From: Thermococcus sp. SY098
GTDB taxonomy: Archaea > Methanobacteriota_B > Thermococci > Thermococcales > Thermococcaceae
NCBI RefSeq assembly: GCF_035621495.1
Contig: NZ_CP141821.1
Location: forward strand, 772,760 to 836,759
Direction of reading: 5' to 3'
Length of the DNA stretch: 64,000 nt
Shown: positions 26,938 through 61,196 of the stretch, in pieces
Layout of the letters: the number at the start of each line of letters is the position of its first letter
Numbering within the stretch: position 1 is the stretch's first letter
Program-made: the position numbers and the translations under genes
Notes under the pieces: model-generated
What the model saw: only the letters and a program-made list of their open reading frames with translations
Told to the model about the DNA's origin: nothing
Databases searched by the model: none

Positions 26938-27036
26938 AATATTGGGTTAAATTTCTTCGAATTTTCGTTCATTTCAATTTCCATCTTCAAAAAACTAATA
27001 AATCAAAAGATAAGACAGAATATAAGGGTGGTATTC

Positions 27037-27711
27037 GTGGATAATGGCGTGGAAAACCTTATCAGGCTTTGGGAGTCCCTTGCCCCAGGAGAGAGCATTT
27101 TGGCTGAATATGATTCTCTGGTGCTTCCTTACAAAGGATTTCACTATCTAATCAGCTGGGCTGAGAAAAGAGGACACTCAATAATGATTATTGATGTCCT
27201 TGATACGTTATATCTCTACAAAACCCAGCTCAAGCTTGCCGGAGTTGACACCGGCATCATTGACAACGCATCAGTGGTTAAAATTGGGGGCAGGCTCAAC
27301 GTTGGAAACGTGTTGAAAAGGCTTCCAGCAAATGATATCCCCAAACTCCTCAAAGATTTTGAGGGATTTTACAGTGAATACCTCCGGAAAGTTCAAAATC
27401 AATCTGGTATAGTTATAGTATTGGGGCTCTCAAAACTTCTGCTTCTTGCAGAATCCAAGTTTGAGGGGCTCATGGTAATTGATCTCTTAATCAAATACAC
27501 GGGAGCCATAAATAGAATAGCGTTTTATTTTGTAAATGTTGATGTGCTGGAGAACAGCTCCCGCTATTTAATTCCGCTTTTAGAGGAACTTGCAACCACC
27601 GTGATAAGGGTGGAAAGAGCAAGAAAAGAGGAGGATATAGAACCTTATGTCTATGTTACCGTTGCAAAGGCTATTAATGCGGAGCTTGAAGGGTTTAAGA
27701 TTAAGCTTTAA
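27037..27711 (+). CDS. DUF257 family protein (Thermococcales-specific, RecA/KaiC-like fold)
   Basis: 224 residues. The opening NLIRLWESLAPGESILAEYD, the HSIMIIDVLDTLYLYKTQLK strand-helix, and the IVIVLGLSKLLLL segment follow the DUF257 pattern. The fold is thought to be a RecA/KaiC-like core that has lost its Walker A loop. GTG at 27037 is chosen over GTG at 27028, because GGTGG then lies 5 bases before it. A related protein is encoded at 34312-35070, and a similar one follows the KaiC gene at 60486. Function unknown. Confidence 0.75.
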   Translation: MDNGVENLIRLWESLAPGESILAEYDSLVLPYKGFHYLISWAEKRGHSIMIIDVLDTLYLYKTQLKLAGVDTGIIDNASVVKIGGRLNVGNVLKRLPANDIPKLLKDFEGFYSEYLRKVQNQSGIVIVLGLSKLLLLAESKFEGLMVIDLLIKYTGAINRIAFYFVNVDVLENSSRYLIPLLEELATTVIRVERARKEEDIEPYVYVTVAKAINAELEGFKIKL

Positions 27712-33866: not shown

Positions 33867-34322
33867 ATGGTCGTTCCAAAGTTCATAACCGACAAGGTTG
33901 CCTTTTCCCCTATGCCATATCCTGAAGAGATTGCAGAACTTGCAAAGGAGTTCCAAGCCGTTGTGGTGCTTACATACGAATATGAGCTCTACTATGATTT
34001 GAAGGAGTGGGAAAAACATGGGGTGGAAGTCCTTTACAGTCCCATTGAGGATTTCTCAGCTCCTACACTGGAGCAACTGATCAATATCGTCAGATGGATA
34101 GATGAAAAAGCTAAAGATGGAAAGAAAGTCCTGATTCACTGCTTTGGAGGAAGTGGGAGAAGCGGAACAATTGCAGTTGCTTATTTAATGTATTCTCAGG
34201 GTTTGAGCCTGAGAGATGCCCTTACAAGGGTTCGTTCACTTAAGCCCTCAGCAGTCGAAACTTGGAGCCAGATGGACATCCTCAGGAAGTTTGAAAGATA
34301 CCTAAAGGGAGTTACTGGGTAA
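33867..34322 (+). CDS. Dual-specificity/tyrosine phosphatase-like protein
   Basis: 151 residues. The P-loop is VLIHCFGGSGRSGTIAVAYL, i.e. the CX5R(S/T) catalytic signature with HC and R. The general acid Asp is probably in VLYSPIEDFSAPTLEQL. The protein resembles the small archaeal dual-specificity phosphatases. ATG at 33867 has GAGGGGTGAT 6 bases upstream; the GTG at 33858 is too close to that site. The 3' end overlaps the convergent DUF257-like gene by 11 bases. Confidence 0.92.
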   Translation: MVVPKFITDKVAFSPMPYPEEIAELAKEFQAVVVLTYEYELYYDLKEWEKHGVEVLYSPIEDFSAPTLEQLINIVRWIDEKAKDGKKVLIHCFGGSGRSGTIAVAYLMYSQGLSLRDALTRVRSLKPSAVETWSQMDILRKFERYLKGVTG

Positions 34323-35070
34323 CCTTTTTAAATGAGAATTTGCCACCTTTTTCTTCCTTTGTCTCTCCGATAAGGAACTCGAATATCTCCGGACTGAATT
34401 CTGGTGTTAGGGCTTTTGATATAATTACGTCTTCAACCATACCTTTTTTGGTCACCTGACTCTTGAAATCGATTACATAATCACTTATATCAACAACCCT
34501 TGCAACAAAATGCTTGGAGACGGCATCTTTATTCACCAAGAGAATCGTTACAGAATTAGGAAACATATCCATGAACTTTGCCAAATCAAAGTATAGCAGC
34601 TTTAGTGCAGTGTTCTCTCCAAAGAAAAACGCCAGTCCATCAAGAGTGTATATGACCCTAACCAGCAGCCTATCACCCAAGTTTGGAAGGATTTTTTCTT
34701 GATATATCAGGAATGTCTTTGGATTAAGTGTTTCCTCTCCGACATGACCTGAAAAGGTATACACGAATGGGTACCGTGGCATAATACCGTATCTTGATGA
34801 GAAGTAATCTATAACGAAGAGATTTCCCTCTTTTCCCTCAGAAACCAAGTCCAAACCCGCGAATTGAGCTCCTCTTATGAGCCTGCCGATGGGATAGCTG
34901 TAGTTTGAGATTATTCCCAAATCGCCTTTTTTGATCCTTTTTGCAAGAATGTGCAATGCAAAGTACTGTGCAAATGAATATGTGTCATATAATATTGCCA
35001 TTGCAGAACCTTGTGACAATCCTCCGCCCATAACTTCATCCAACTCGTTATACAGAGTTTTAACCATCAT
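34312..35070 (-). CDS. DUF257 family protein (KaiC/RecA-like fold without Walker A)
   Basis: 252 residues. The start VKTLYNELDEVMGGGLSQGSAMAILYD has the KaiC-like GGxxxG...LIxxD arrangement but lacks GxxxxGK(S/T). Strands LGIISNYSYPIGRL and LLVRVIYTLDGLAFFFGE and FMDMFPNSVTILLVNKD continue the RecA-like fold. It is a member of the DUF257 group, related to the proteins at 27037 and 60486. ATG at 35070 is used because GGTGAG lies upstream. Function unknown. Confidence 0.72.
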   Translation of the reverse strand: MMVKTLYNELDEVMGGGLSQGSAMAILYDTYSFAQYFALHILAKRIKKGDLGIISNYSYPIGRLIRGAQFAGLDLVSEGKEGNLFVIDYFSSRYGIMPRYPFVYTFSGHVGEETLNPKTFLIYQEKILPNLGDRLLVRVIYTLDGLAFFFGENTALKLLYFDLAKFMDMFPNSVTILLVNKDAVSKHFVARVVDISDYVIDFKSQVTKKGMVEDVIISKALTPEFSPEIFEFLIGETKEEKGGKFSFKKVTQ

Positions 35071-35237
35071 CTGCCTCACCTACATCTCTCTTAATAGAAC
35101 TGCAGTTTCTAAGGATAAAAAAACTTTTTGTAAAAATAACTTCAATCACTTAAAAGATATGCGAAAATTAAACCGGATATCAAAAATTCATTTTAAATTT
35201 TAAAAAATCGATCAGCATAAGGATTAGGGCAAAAAAT

Positions 35238-57346: not shown

Positions 57347-57473
57347 CGGGATCACCAGATGAGCTTTTAGCTCTCAACATATAAAAACCTTTTACATAAC
57401 TAAAGGTTGAACTTGATATTGGATATTTTATCCATGTGCAGAAAAACTTAACTTAATGCAAGTGAATCTCATT

Positions 57474-58346
57474 ATGATGATAATTTACGGAATAGGTCTT
57501 GACAGCTCAGCAAAGATTACTTTTCAAAGTCACGCTCACAGTGATCATTTTGTTAGTGGAAATACTATATTCTCCACGAAAGCTACCAAATTTCTAAGCC
57601 ATCTAAAGAAAAGTGGACTTTATAAAGTTGTAAAGTTTGGAAAAACGTTTTACTTAGGTGACTACAAAGCCAAGCTTTATCCCGCTGGTCACATCTTAGG
57701 CTCCGCTCAAATTTATATTGAATTCGATGAGTTTTCTCTGCTTTATACTGGAGACGTCAAGTGGTTTAAGCTGAGAACTGCTGAAAAGAGCAAGTTTAGA
57801 AAGGCCGATGTTCTAATAATCGAAGCAACTTTCGGTGTTCCTATGTATAACTTTCCTTCACCAAAAGAAGCAGAAAAAAAGCTTATTGCTTTTGTTGAGA
57901 GTGCTCTTGACAAGCGAAAAACACCCACCCTTTATGCAAACCAGATAGGCAAAGCCCAAGAGCTTTTGAAGATTCTTGAGGTTCACGGCTATACCGTGAA
58001 AGCCTCAAGGAGCATAATTAAAGTCGCAAAGATTTATGAAAAATTTGGAATTAAATTTCAAAATATAGATAGGGACGGAGAAGTGCTCTTGAGAGGCTTC
58101 ACACGCCCCAAGCCCGATGATTCAGCTTCCTCCTATGAGCTTCATGTTTCTGGATTTGGCAATTTAAAGCTCAGCAACCATGCTGATTTTTGGGAACTTA
58201 TCAAAATTATAGAGAAAGTCAGGCCAGAAAAGATCTACACTGTTTATGGATATGCGGAAAATTTTGCAAAAATTTTAAGAGGTTTGGGGTATGATGCGAC
58301 TGCCATAGACAAAGATTGTTGTTTATCATGTTACAAAAATATTTAA
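57474..58346 (+). CDS. MBL-fold protein, RNase-like/exonuclease family (COG1236-like)
   Basis: 290 residues. The MBL motif is TFQSHAHSDHFVSGN, with LYPAGHILGSAQIYIE, LYTGDVKWFKL and LSNHADFWELI supplying further ligands. This is the beta-CASP-linked subgroup (mRNA 3'-end processing-like or DNA ligase-associated exonuclease). The beta-CASP insert is short. Likely a nuclease. ATG at 57474 is chosen; 57456 lacks a ribosome binding site. Confidence 0.82.
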   Translation: MMIIYGIGLDSSAKITFQSHAHSDHFVSGNTIFSTKATKFLSHLKKSGLYKVVKFGKTFYLGDYKAKLYPAGHILGSAQIYIEFDEFSLLYTGDVKWFKLRTAEKSKFRKADVLIIEATFGVPMYNFPSPKEAEKKLIAFVESALDKRKTPTLYANQIGKAQELLKILEVHGYTVKASRSIIKVAKIYEKFGIKFQNIDRDGEVLLRGFTRPKPDDSASSYELHVSGFGNLKLSNHADFWELIKIIEKVRPEKIYTVYGYAENFAKILRGLGYDATAIDKDCCLSCYKNI

Positions 58347-58369: not shown

Positions 58370-58786
58370 ATGAAATATAGCAAATATAAACGGTACAATC
58401 CTCGCAAGCACATCTTCCTGAACTACCTCCTCCTTACGCACAAAAAGAGGATTATTCGGAAGAAAGAGCTTGTTTACGATATGAAGATACAAAAGCTTCA
58501 GGACATAATAGATGCTTTAAGTGGATGGGTGGAAGCTGCAGAGATTGAAAGAAATTTAAAACATGCTTTTCTGCATGATCTGGAGATGTTCAGGAAGTTT
58601 CTACTAACTTTCCTCACTCGATCTACACTAAACAGCATTAATTACTATACCCTGAAGGCGTGGGAAAGCAGAATTGATACACTTGCAAATGAAATTTCCA
58701 GACGAAAAAATCCATTTTTTAAGCTCCTATATTCAAGATTTAAGCTTTCTTTGGATGAATTCTACAGAGAGCTGGGCATTAGATGA
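58370..58786 (+). CDS. Basic helical protein upstream of KaiC operon, unknown function
   Basis: 138 residues, strongly basic at the N-terminus (KYSKYKRYNPRKH, THKKRIIRKKELVY) and helical after that (LQDIIDALSGWVEAAEIERN, HDLEMFRKFLLTFLTRSTLN). No motif is recognised. The high lysine/arginine content suggests nucleic acid or phospholipid contact. It is 46 bases before the KaiC gene on the same strand and may belong to its operon. There is no good ribosome binding site, so its mRNA may be leaderless. Confidence 0.6.
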   Translation: MKYSKYKRYNPRKHIFLNYLLLTHKKRIIRKKELVYDMKIQKLQDIIDALSGWVEAAEIERNLKHAFLHDLEMFRKFLLTFLTRSTLNSINYYTLKAWESRIDTLANEISRRKNPFFKLLYSRFKLSLDEFYRELGIR

Positions 58787-58832
58787 TTATGTTTAAATAT
58801 CTCAACAACAAAATTCTGGTAGGGTGAGAAAT

Positions 58833-60191
58833 ATGAAAACGGGAATAGAGTTCTTTGATGAAACTATCATCAGAGAGGGGTTTCCAGAAGGCTCCTTGAT
58901 CATAGTGGCTGGAGAACCAGGAACTGGAAAAACGATTTTCACATCAACTATAATACACAATGGACTTGAAAAATTCGGAGAGAAAGGTATGTATATCTCG
59001 CTTTCAGAAACAAAAGAGGATTTTTATGACGAGATGAAAAGGCTCGGCATGGATTTTGAAAAGTACGAGAAAAGTGGACTCTTTAGGTTTATGGATTTGG
59101 TTACTGTTACACCTGATGTCATTGAAAAGGAAATTGAGCTGATCATGAAAGAAATCTTGAGCTTTCGTCCAAAACGTATTGTCATAGATTCAATAACTGC
59201 ACTTACACAGCTTTTAGGCACAGAAAAAACAAGAATCTTCTTGCATACAACATTAGGAAGATTCATTAAGTCCTTTGGAGCAGTTGCGTTCCTGATTGCA
59301 GAAAAGCCTTTGGGAAAAGAAACAATCGGGCATGGTGTTGAAGAATTCGTGGTGGATGGCGTTATAGTGCTCAAGTACATAAGCCTCGGAGAAGTCAGGA
59401 GGAGAGTAATGGAAATTCCAAAGATGAGAAAAAGAAGTATTGAGAAATCCCAGTATGAATATGTAATAACAGATCGTGGAATTGAGTTTTTAGCAATCCC
59501 CGATCTCATTAGGGGGGAGGAAGATGCTTCAGAAGAAAAAGTAAGCACCGGCATTAAGGAACTCGACGCAATTTTAGATGGAGGCGTTTACAGGGGATCA
59601 ATAACATTAATTGTCGGGATGACTGGAACTGGAAAAACTACTTTCGGCTTACACTTTGCAATAGCAAATGCTCTTCAGGGGAGAAAAGCGATATACATCT
59701 CCTTTGAAGAATCTGTAGGGCAGCTAAAGAGGGCAGCAAGAAGGTATGGAATGCCAGTTGATGAAGTTTTGGATAAGACATTGAAGATGTTCAGCTGGGT
59801 TCCCGAAGCAAAAACACCAGTTCACACATTCCTTAAGATTAGAGAAATTATTGATGAGCATATGCCAGAAGTTCTTGTGATTGACAGCCTGACCTCACTC
59901 AGAGAGCATATGAACGAAATAGAGCTTGAAAAGATGCTTAGATACCTAAGTCTTATAATAAAGCAACACAAAGTAGCTACCTACATAACCCTTAATGCAG
60001 AAACAGACTTTGAAACAGTGCCATTCACCAAAGCAAGCACTCTCTCAGACAACATCATTGGGCTGAAATATGTCATAAAAAACGAGCTCATAGAAAGACG
60101 GTTGGCGGTTATTAAGGCCAGAGGATCAAATCATTCCAGGAAAATCCACAAATATGATATAACCGACAAGGGGGTGATGATCTATGAGTAG
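58833..60191 (+). CDS. Two-domain KaiC/RadA-like ATPase
   Basis: 452 residues with two KaiC-like RecA domains. Domain 1: Walker A VAGEPGTGKTIFTSTII, ISLSETKEDFYDEMKRLGMD, Walker B RIVIDSITALTQL. Domain 2: Walker A VGMTGTGKTTFGLHFA, ISFEESVGQLKRAARRYGM with the EE catalytic pair, Walker B VLVIDSLTSL. Such proteins act as signalling ATPases in archaea. ATG at 58833 has GGTGAG 4 bases upstream. Two small partner genes follow, overlapping or 2 bases apart. Confidence 0.92.
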   Translation: MKTGIEFFDETIIREGFPEGSLIIVAGEPGTGKTIFTSTIIHNGLEKFGEKGMYISLSETKEDFYDEMKRLGMDFEKYEKSGLFRFMDLVTVTPDVIEKEIELIMKEILSFRPKRIVIDSITALTQLLGTEKTRIFLHTTLGRFIKSFGAVAFLIAEKPLGKETIGHGVEEFVVDGVIVLKYISLGEVRRRVMEIPKMRKRSIEKSQYEYVITDRGIEFLAIPDLIRGEEDASEEKVSTGIKELDAILDGGVYRGSITLIVGMTGTGKTTFGLHFAIANALQGRKAIYISFEESVGQLKRAARRYGMPVDEVLDKTLKMFSWVPEAKTPVHTFLKIREIIDEHMPEVLVIDSLTSLREHMNEIELEKMLRYLSLIIKQHKVATYITLNAETDFETVPFTKASTLSDNIIGLKYVIKNELIERRLAVIKARGSNHSRKIHKYDITDKGVMIYE

Positions 60192-60483
60192 TGCTGAGGA
60201 GATAGTGGTCAGAGCTGTGACCTACGCTGTGGAAAAAGCTAACCCTACTCTCAAAAATCTTTTGGAGTTCCATCTAAAGACCACGACAGGAAAAGGCTAT
60301 GAGCTTGCGTATGAGGATCCAAAAAGATTTAAAGAAGCCGTTTCAAAGCTTTTCGGAGAATACAGCGGAAGATTACTTGAAATGCTGATCATAAGCTACT
60401 TCAAAGAGAAGGTCGGACTAAAGGAGAACATAGAGGACCTTGAAGATCTTGTAAGATACGTTAAGAGAATTTATGGGGAATAA
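60184..60483 (+). CDS. Small output-domain protein linked to KaiC (NitrOD5-like)
   Basis: 99 residues, helical, with VRAVTYAVEKANPTLKNLLE, TTTGKGYELAYEDPKRFKEAV and LFGEYSGRLLEMLIISYFKE. It resembles small archaeal domains reported next to KaiC-like ATPases (NitrOD5-like). Its start overlaps the KaiC stop by 8 bases and the DUF257-like gene begins 2 bases after it, so the three are co-translated. Function unknown. Confidence 0.65.
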   Translation: MSSAEEIVVRAVTYAVEKANPTLKNLLEFHLKTTTGKGYELAYEDPKRFKEAVSKLFGEYSGRLLEMLIISYFKEKVGLKENIEDLEDLVRYVKRIYGE

Positions 60484-60485
60484 AA

Positions 60486-61196
60486 ATGGAAGTCAATCCT
60501 CTTGAAATTTTAAAGGAATCTTCCAAAAGAATAAGCCCAACTCTCATTGAATATGAGATCGGAAGCGAAATCGAGATAATTCTCTATACTCTAATAAAAA
60601 AGCTCAGACAAGAATACCAGAACTTCATAATAATATCGTTCCATGATGCATACCTTGTCCTAAGGAGATATCTTGAAAATGTGTTCTCAGAGACGGAGGT
60701 GAACACAGCATTCGATGGTGTCCACTTGATTTCAGTGAATCCCATTCTTGAGACTGAAGAAAATCGGCCACAGGATATAATTAAAAGCACACATCACGAT
60801 ATCATTGTTGGACGAATCCTTGAGGCAACTTCAAAGATAAATGGCGAGTCTTTATTCATAATATTGGGACTGGACTTTTTTGGAATAAGAATAGGAAAGG
60901 ATGAGCTCATAGACTTATTCCCGGCATTAGTATCGACCATAGGACGAAAAAAGAACAACAATGTAATAATGACGCTCAATGTTAAGGTCTTTCCTCAAAG
61001 CCTTGTAGAGATTGTGAACAGCTTTGCATTCAACGTAGCCCATGTTGGGATTGAACTTCAGGACAAGGAGATCAGGAGGTATATAACCCTTATTCGCACG
61101 GTATTTTTAGAGTATAACCTCAAGAAGTGGTACTACACACTCCTTGGAAAAAAGCTTGTGTTTAAGAGTGTGAACTCTGAGGGGCTAATTTTTTAA
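60486..61196 (+). CDS. DUF257-like degenerate RecA-fold protein, KaiC operon partner
   Basis: 236 residues. The pattern of strands LIEYEIGSEIEIILYTLIKK, FIIISFHDAYLVLRRYLEN, SLFIILGLDFFGIRIGKDEL and VIMTLNVKVFPQSLVEIVNS resembles the DUF257 proteins at 27037 and 34312 and a KaiC core that has lost the Walker A loop. It completes a three-gene set of KaiC, small output domain and degenerate RecA-fold protein. Possible regulator or partner of the KaiC ATPase. Confidence 0.65.
   Translation: MEVNPLEILKESSKRISPTLIEYEIGSEIEIILYTLIKKLRQEYQNFIIISFHDAYLVLRRYLENVFSETEVNTAFDGVHLISVNPILETEENRPQDIIKSTHHDIIVGRILEATSKINGESLFIILGLDFFGIRIGKDELIDLFPALVSTIGRKKNNNVIMTLNVKVFPQSLVEIVNSFAFNVAHVGIELQDKEIRRYITLIRTVFLEYNLKKWYYTLLGKKLVFKSVNSEGLIF

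Follow-up and report, generated by a model that had tools for sequence, protein, structure and literature searches.

A KaiC-type ATPase, a NitrOD5 protein and a degenerate KaiC-fold protein encoded by an apparently mobile three-gene unit of Thermococcaceae, probably as one signalling complex

In the 64,000-nucleotide stretch of Thermococcus sp. SY098 DNA that we analyzed (hereafter, the window), three tightly packed genes encode a two-domain KaiC-type protein, a NitrOD5 protein, and a third protein, P3, which is predicted to be a degenerate relative of KaiC. Comparison of related loci indicates that KaiC-NitrOD5-P3 moves between Thermococcaceae as one cassette, and because the three genes travel together between species, we consider it moderately probable that they encode a single ATP-driven signalling complex with a KaiC-type autokinase at its core. 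The four open reading frames listed in an earlier note on this DNA (for a basic protein, KaiC, and proteins of 99 and 236 residues) are all present on the + strand, and the features of the region are as follows.

58370-58786, + strand: open reading frame for a basic protein of 138 residues (pI 10.0), family not assigned, with no Pfam or NCBIfam match
58792-58799, + strand: TATA-box-like TTTAAATA, read from the sequence; the likely start codon of KaiC follows about 34-41 nt downstream
58824-60191, + strand: predicted two-domain KaiC-family ATPase/autokinase, 455 residues (PF06745, 5.9e-102; solved KaiC proteins, to 1.5e-65)
60184-60483, + strand: NitrOD5 protein, 99 residues, all-helical, orthologue of PH0832 (PF11537, 2.8e-33; 2P9X, 1.4e-25)
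60486-61196, + strand: P3, predicted degenerate KaiC/RecA-fold protein, 236 residues (profile comparison, AlphaFold2 model, and Foldseek)

In the window sequence, the KaiC and NitrOD5 genes overlap by 8 nt and a gap of 2 nt separates NitrOD5 from P3; the earlier note had called the three genes translationally coupled, and this close packing recurs in relatives. With regard to KaiC, the start is most likely ATG 58833 (452 residues) rather than GTG 58824, because this ATG and the GGTGAG preceding it align with those of near relatives. Here, GTG 58824 falls inside this Shine-Dalgarno-like GGTGAG, and the KaiC residue numbers given below (e.g., Ser405/Thr406) count from it. A T/A-rich box similar to TTTAAATA appears 5' of KaiC in most relatives of type I, even though the genes preceding KaiC differ, and the TATA-like element probably marks the start of the KaiC transcription unit. 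The basic 138-residue protein had been taken as a member of the same operon, but its gene is confined to genera g1 and g4 (6 genomes of 61), and a separate TATA-like box precedes KaiC. On these two grounds, it was rejected as a component of the unit and is probably a neighbor outside of it. A functional tie to the adjacent deoxyhypusine synthase was likewise rejected, because the unit sits elsewhere in other genera.

Two KaiC domains, CI (approximately residues 4-223) and CII (approximately residues 238-453), are recognized by PF06745 in two separate stretches, and solved KaiC proteins match the window KaiC across both rings. The Walker A motifs are GEPGTGKT (residues 30-37) and GMTGTGKT (residues 265-272), and both of them, including their lysines, are invariant in 22 KaiC relatives of types I and II. 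Also invariant in these 22 sequences are Glu62, Glu295/Glu296, and Ser405/Thr406, as well as Lys200/Arg202/Arg204 and Lys431/Arg433/Ser435. Moreover, Glu295/Glu296 and Ser405/Thr406 align with the CII glutamate pair and the phosphosites of solved KaiC, which in the S. elongatus protein we take to be E318/E319 and S431/T432, respectively. In CI, the second catalytic glutamate is kept (Glu62) and the first is serine or alanine (Ser61 in the window KaiC), and therefore CI may be a weak ATPase. Judged from its residues, the KaiC of the unit nonetheless looks active, and the active sites that had been attributed to it are borne out, as the two Walker A motifs and the glutamate pair of CII do not vary.

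At 30 and 75 °C, P. horikoshii PH0833 and a KaiC3 from T. litoralis have been reported to autophosphorylate independently of KaiA (Schmelling et al., PMC5520375). At L094, the NitrOD5 gene, whose product is 100% identical to PH0832, overlaps a KaiC gene that, going by the locus numbers, is taken to be PH0833. The three proteins of this locus are apparent orthologues of those in the window (67% identity for KaiC, 51% for NitrOD5, and 48% for P3). With autophosphorylation on record for PH0833, it is no novelty that a KaiC of this type acts as a kinase. The NitrOD5 structure has been solved as well (PH0832, PDB 2P9X), and we found no study of P3 in the literature on PH0833/PH0832 or T. litoralis KaiC3.

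The 99-residue protein scores 114.3 bits against PF11537, for which the cut-off is 27, and its model superposes on 2P9X with a TM score of 0.93. In the structure search, the significant match was to 2P9X of its own family alone. A DEATH-like relation of NitrOD5 has been proposed (PMC5847659); in our comparison, pyrin domains gave E-values of 1.5 and 5.8 with TM scores of 0.2-0.3. NitrOD5 repeatedly adjoins KaiC-type ATPases, namely in type I and type II loci, in another archaeal family, and beside a GvpD-like ATPase.

The 236-residue protein, P3, had been described in the earlier note both as DUF257-like and as a degenerate RecA-fold partner, and only the latter description was supported. P3 matches no Pfam or NCBIfam family, PF03192 included, and a profile of 20 P3 sequences compared with DUF257 by hhalign gave probabilities of 0.3-0.8%; DUF257 identity was thereby ruled out. 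While DUF257 proteins (PF03192; PDB 2EKD, PH0250) are also Thermococcales proteins, of about 220 residues, they share no sequence or profile similarity with P3, and the DUF257 profile does not match the KaiC profile. In contrast, the P3 profile aligns with KaiC over CII with 65.7% probability (E=5.8e-5). The AlphaFold2 model of P3 is of moderate confidence (mean pLDDT 62, pTM 0.62), and all 50 Foldseek matches listed for it are KaiC-type, the best being PH0284 (3.8e-7, TM 0.60). In the profile alignment with KaiC, the Walker A segment GTGKT is replaced by GS[DE][IV]E, whereby the Walker A lysine is gone, and the position of the CII glutamate pair reads x-D with an invariant aspartate. By profile and model, P3 is thus predicted to be a KaiC/RecA-fold protein that has lost nucleotide-binding and catalytic residues.

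Conservation of the triad was one half of the refutation test set in the earlier note, and the triad proved to be kept and co-inherited. P3 is present in 31 of 115 Thermococci genomes, being full-length or nearly so in 28 of them (P3 in G021 is split); the copies outside these 28 are remnants. NitrOD5 directly precedes P3 in all 27 cases of an intact P3 with upstream sequence. The gene order is KaiC, NitrOD5, P3 on the same strand, and the NitrOD5-P3 spacing ranges from -1 to +21 nt. As for exceptions to this order, the G005 sequence starts inside P3 at a contig end, the G102 stretch has no KaiC match, and KaiC is split in G011. In the 115 genomes, the P3/NitrOD5 co-occurrence counts are 27/1/15/72 (Fisher p=1.6e-14), where the genomes are related to each other and not independent. 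The unit is dispensable, as most Thermococci are without it, and split or decayed copies exist (L090, L098, L102, and L104).

KaiC-NitrOD5 pairs without P3 are found at L126, L180, L181, and L188, and the pair is commoner than the triad. Moreover, the dN of P3 is about threefold that of KaiC (0.16-0.17 versus 0.054). These two observations make the role of P3 the weakest part of the mechanism proposed below, and they lend some weight to a reading in which the working core is a KaiC-NitrOD5 switch and P3 is a fast-evolving accessory, perhaps outside the working complex and serving as an assembly factor or a target specificity factor, or being a decaying KaiC-domain duplicate. Type II units, which carry a second NitrOD5-like protein in place of P3, point the same way. 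However, P3 is kept in 28 genomes at a constant position and has 31 invariant columns among the 20 sequences, and we hold this accessory reading to be rather unlikely.

Several observations lead us to conclude that the unit is transferred as a cassette. Its neighborhoods differ between genera, one copy is carried on a 49-kb T. peptonophilus plasmid (NZ_CP014751.1), and another (L119) adjoins an archaeal phage-type integrase gene. The KaiC and P3 distances are correlated (Mantel r 0.84, reached in 0 of 2000 permutations, as computed without a species-tree control), and in the KaiC tree the monophyly of genus g2 is rejected (p-AU 0.0023), contrary to vertical descent in this genus. A viral origin was rejected, as no P3 relatives were found in the viral collection IMG/VR.

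Such patchiness and mobility (plasmid and integrase contexts), taken with the combination of an ATPase and a death-fold-like adaptor, the latter by the DEATH-like relation mentioned above, might suggest a module for anti-virus defence or some other conflict. Yet an effector domain is absent, P3 has no relatives in the viral collection, and PADLOC gave no match for NitrOD5 or P3, a weak match of KaiC to mad8, and one weak match among 10 neighbors. With no supporting match for NitrOD5 or P3, a defence module was rejected, and we regard this explanation as highly improbable.

Relatives beyond the triad follow a wider pattern. Type II loci, from genus g3, encode a KaiC of about 41% identity, NitrOD5, and the second NitrOD5-like protein; in units L100, L122, L129, L134, and L138, the latter has 85-89 residues and a conserved LGEFP motif. 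L180 and L181, which come from two genomes of a different archaeal family, have the KaiC-NitrOD5 pair and lack P3, and at L182 a GvpD-like ATPase adjoins NitrOD5. Close to the L180 pair lies a T2SSF/TadC-like gene, and this neighbor fits the pilus-linked KaiC-DEATH-like pairs (arCOG01174 with arCOG03758) described beside type IV pilus genes (PMC4858521). Both of these contexts would suit a unit that regulates a surface appendage, either a type IV pilus or an archaellum, in the manner of FlaH/ArlH. Near the type I units examined, however, pilus genes were not seen (Pfam on part of the neighbors), which leaves an appendage regulator a very doubtful explanation; the genes around the unit point to no common pathway.

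For the one signalling complex that we favor, the following mechanism can be put forward. KaiC would form a hexameric double ring and autophosphorylate at Ser405/Thr406 in response to ATP/ADP or to some other input. As an adaptor, NitrOD5 might then dock on the KaiC ring when the latter is in one particular state of phosphorylation or nucleotide binding, whereby NitrOD5 would take the place that KaiB has in other systems; in this respect, the authors of PMC4858521 have suggested that a DEATH-like protein might replace KaiB. P3, for its part, may bind or cap the ring via a KaiC-type subunit interface and, itself catalytically dead, serve to regulate it or as a platform for output.

With cyanobacterial KaiABC, the window KaiC shares the two KaiC domains, the CII glutamate pair, the Ser-Thr phosphosite pair, and the Lys/Arg residues after the phosphosite strand. 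Unlike it, the window KaiC is without the C-terminal KaiA-binding tail, ending at residue 455 and matching to residue 478 of a 519-residue KaiC. Moreover, a search for KaiB (PF07689) in the SY098 genome gave no match, with the S. elongatus control being positive. A classical KaiABC clock was thus ruled out (no KaiB and no KaiA tail). As regards the phosphorylation rhythm of the cyanobacterial clock, autokinase activity alone is reported for orthologues of the window KaiC (PMC5520375). It is a rather far-fetched extension that the mobile three-gene cassette constitutes a phosphorylation timer or hourglass free of KaiA and KaiB, with NitrOD5 in the role of KaiB and the dead KaiC, P3, capping the ring.

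Archaeal signalling modules of KaiC with DEATH-like partners were proposed in 2016-17 (PMC4858521; PMC5847659), and KaiC as a hub by Makarova et al. (2017), as cited in PMC5847659. The earlier note had spoken of an uncharacterised complex, which stands insofar as we found no description of the triad and falls with respect to its parts, given the autophosphorylation of PH0833 (PMC5520375), the PH0832 structure, and these proposals. Leaving aside Makarova et al. (2017), considered here as far as it is cited, we found no published account of the mobile triad, nor of P3 being derived from KaiC; part of these findings may already be in print. KaiC hubs, KaiC-DEATH-like pairs, and inactivated KaiC proteins have been proposed before, and what is new is a triad that is both fixed and mobile and includes a pseudo-KaiC. 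The archaeal KaiC-DEATH-like pairs come without a fixed third gene, whereas in Thermococcaceae a degenerate KaiC-fold gene is added and the genes are jointly mobile. Archaea have been proposed to signal largely via KaiC-type ATPases, yet few of these pathways have been worked out in full. The present unit is self-contained, comprising an autokinase with reportedly active orthologues, a partner with a solved orthologue, and a newly recognized pseudo-KaiC, and it is small enough for in vitro reconstitution. As KaiC expression constructs from P. horikoshii and T. litoralis are available (PMC5520375), the partner hypothesis is directly testable.

Some further observations concern other genes in the window and its relatives. 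Two more DUF257 proteins had been claimed for the window, of which the one at 27028-27711 was confirmed (1.2e-40). The other, a 255-residue protein at 34312-35079 on the - strand, is instead degenerate and weakly KaiC-like (PF06745, 18.8 bits, below the cut-off). Searches of the whole 2.03-Mb genome gave 13 DUF257 (PF03192) genes, with one in the window (27070-27702) and with neither P3 nor the gene at 34312 among them, and 14 KaiC-domain (PF06745) matches, the window KaiC alone having two. Upstream of the basic protein gene, 57456-58346 encodes an exonuclease-like protein of metallo-beta-lactamase fold, which resembles the models for ligase-associated exonuclease, aCPSF1, and type VII Cas14 at scores below threshold. 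The neighbors of type II units resemble Dph2 and RNA methyltransferases, as judged by eye. A peroxiredoxin gene is found near the unit at L121 and L124, on a chromosome and on a plasmid, and at L091 and related g6 loci a TnpB-like gene or its remnants lie closely 5' of KaiC, with similarity seen within this set only.
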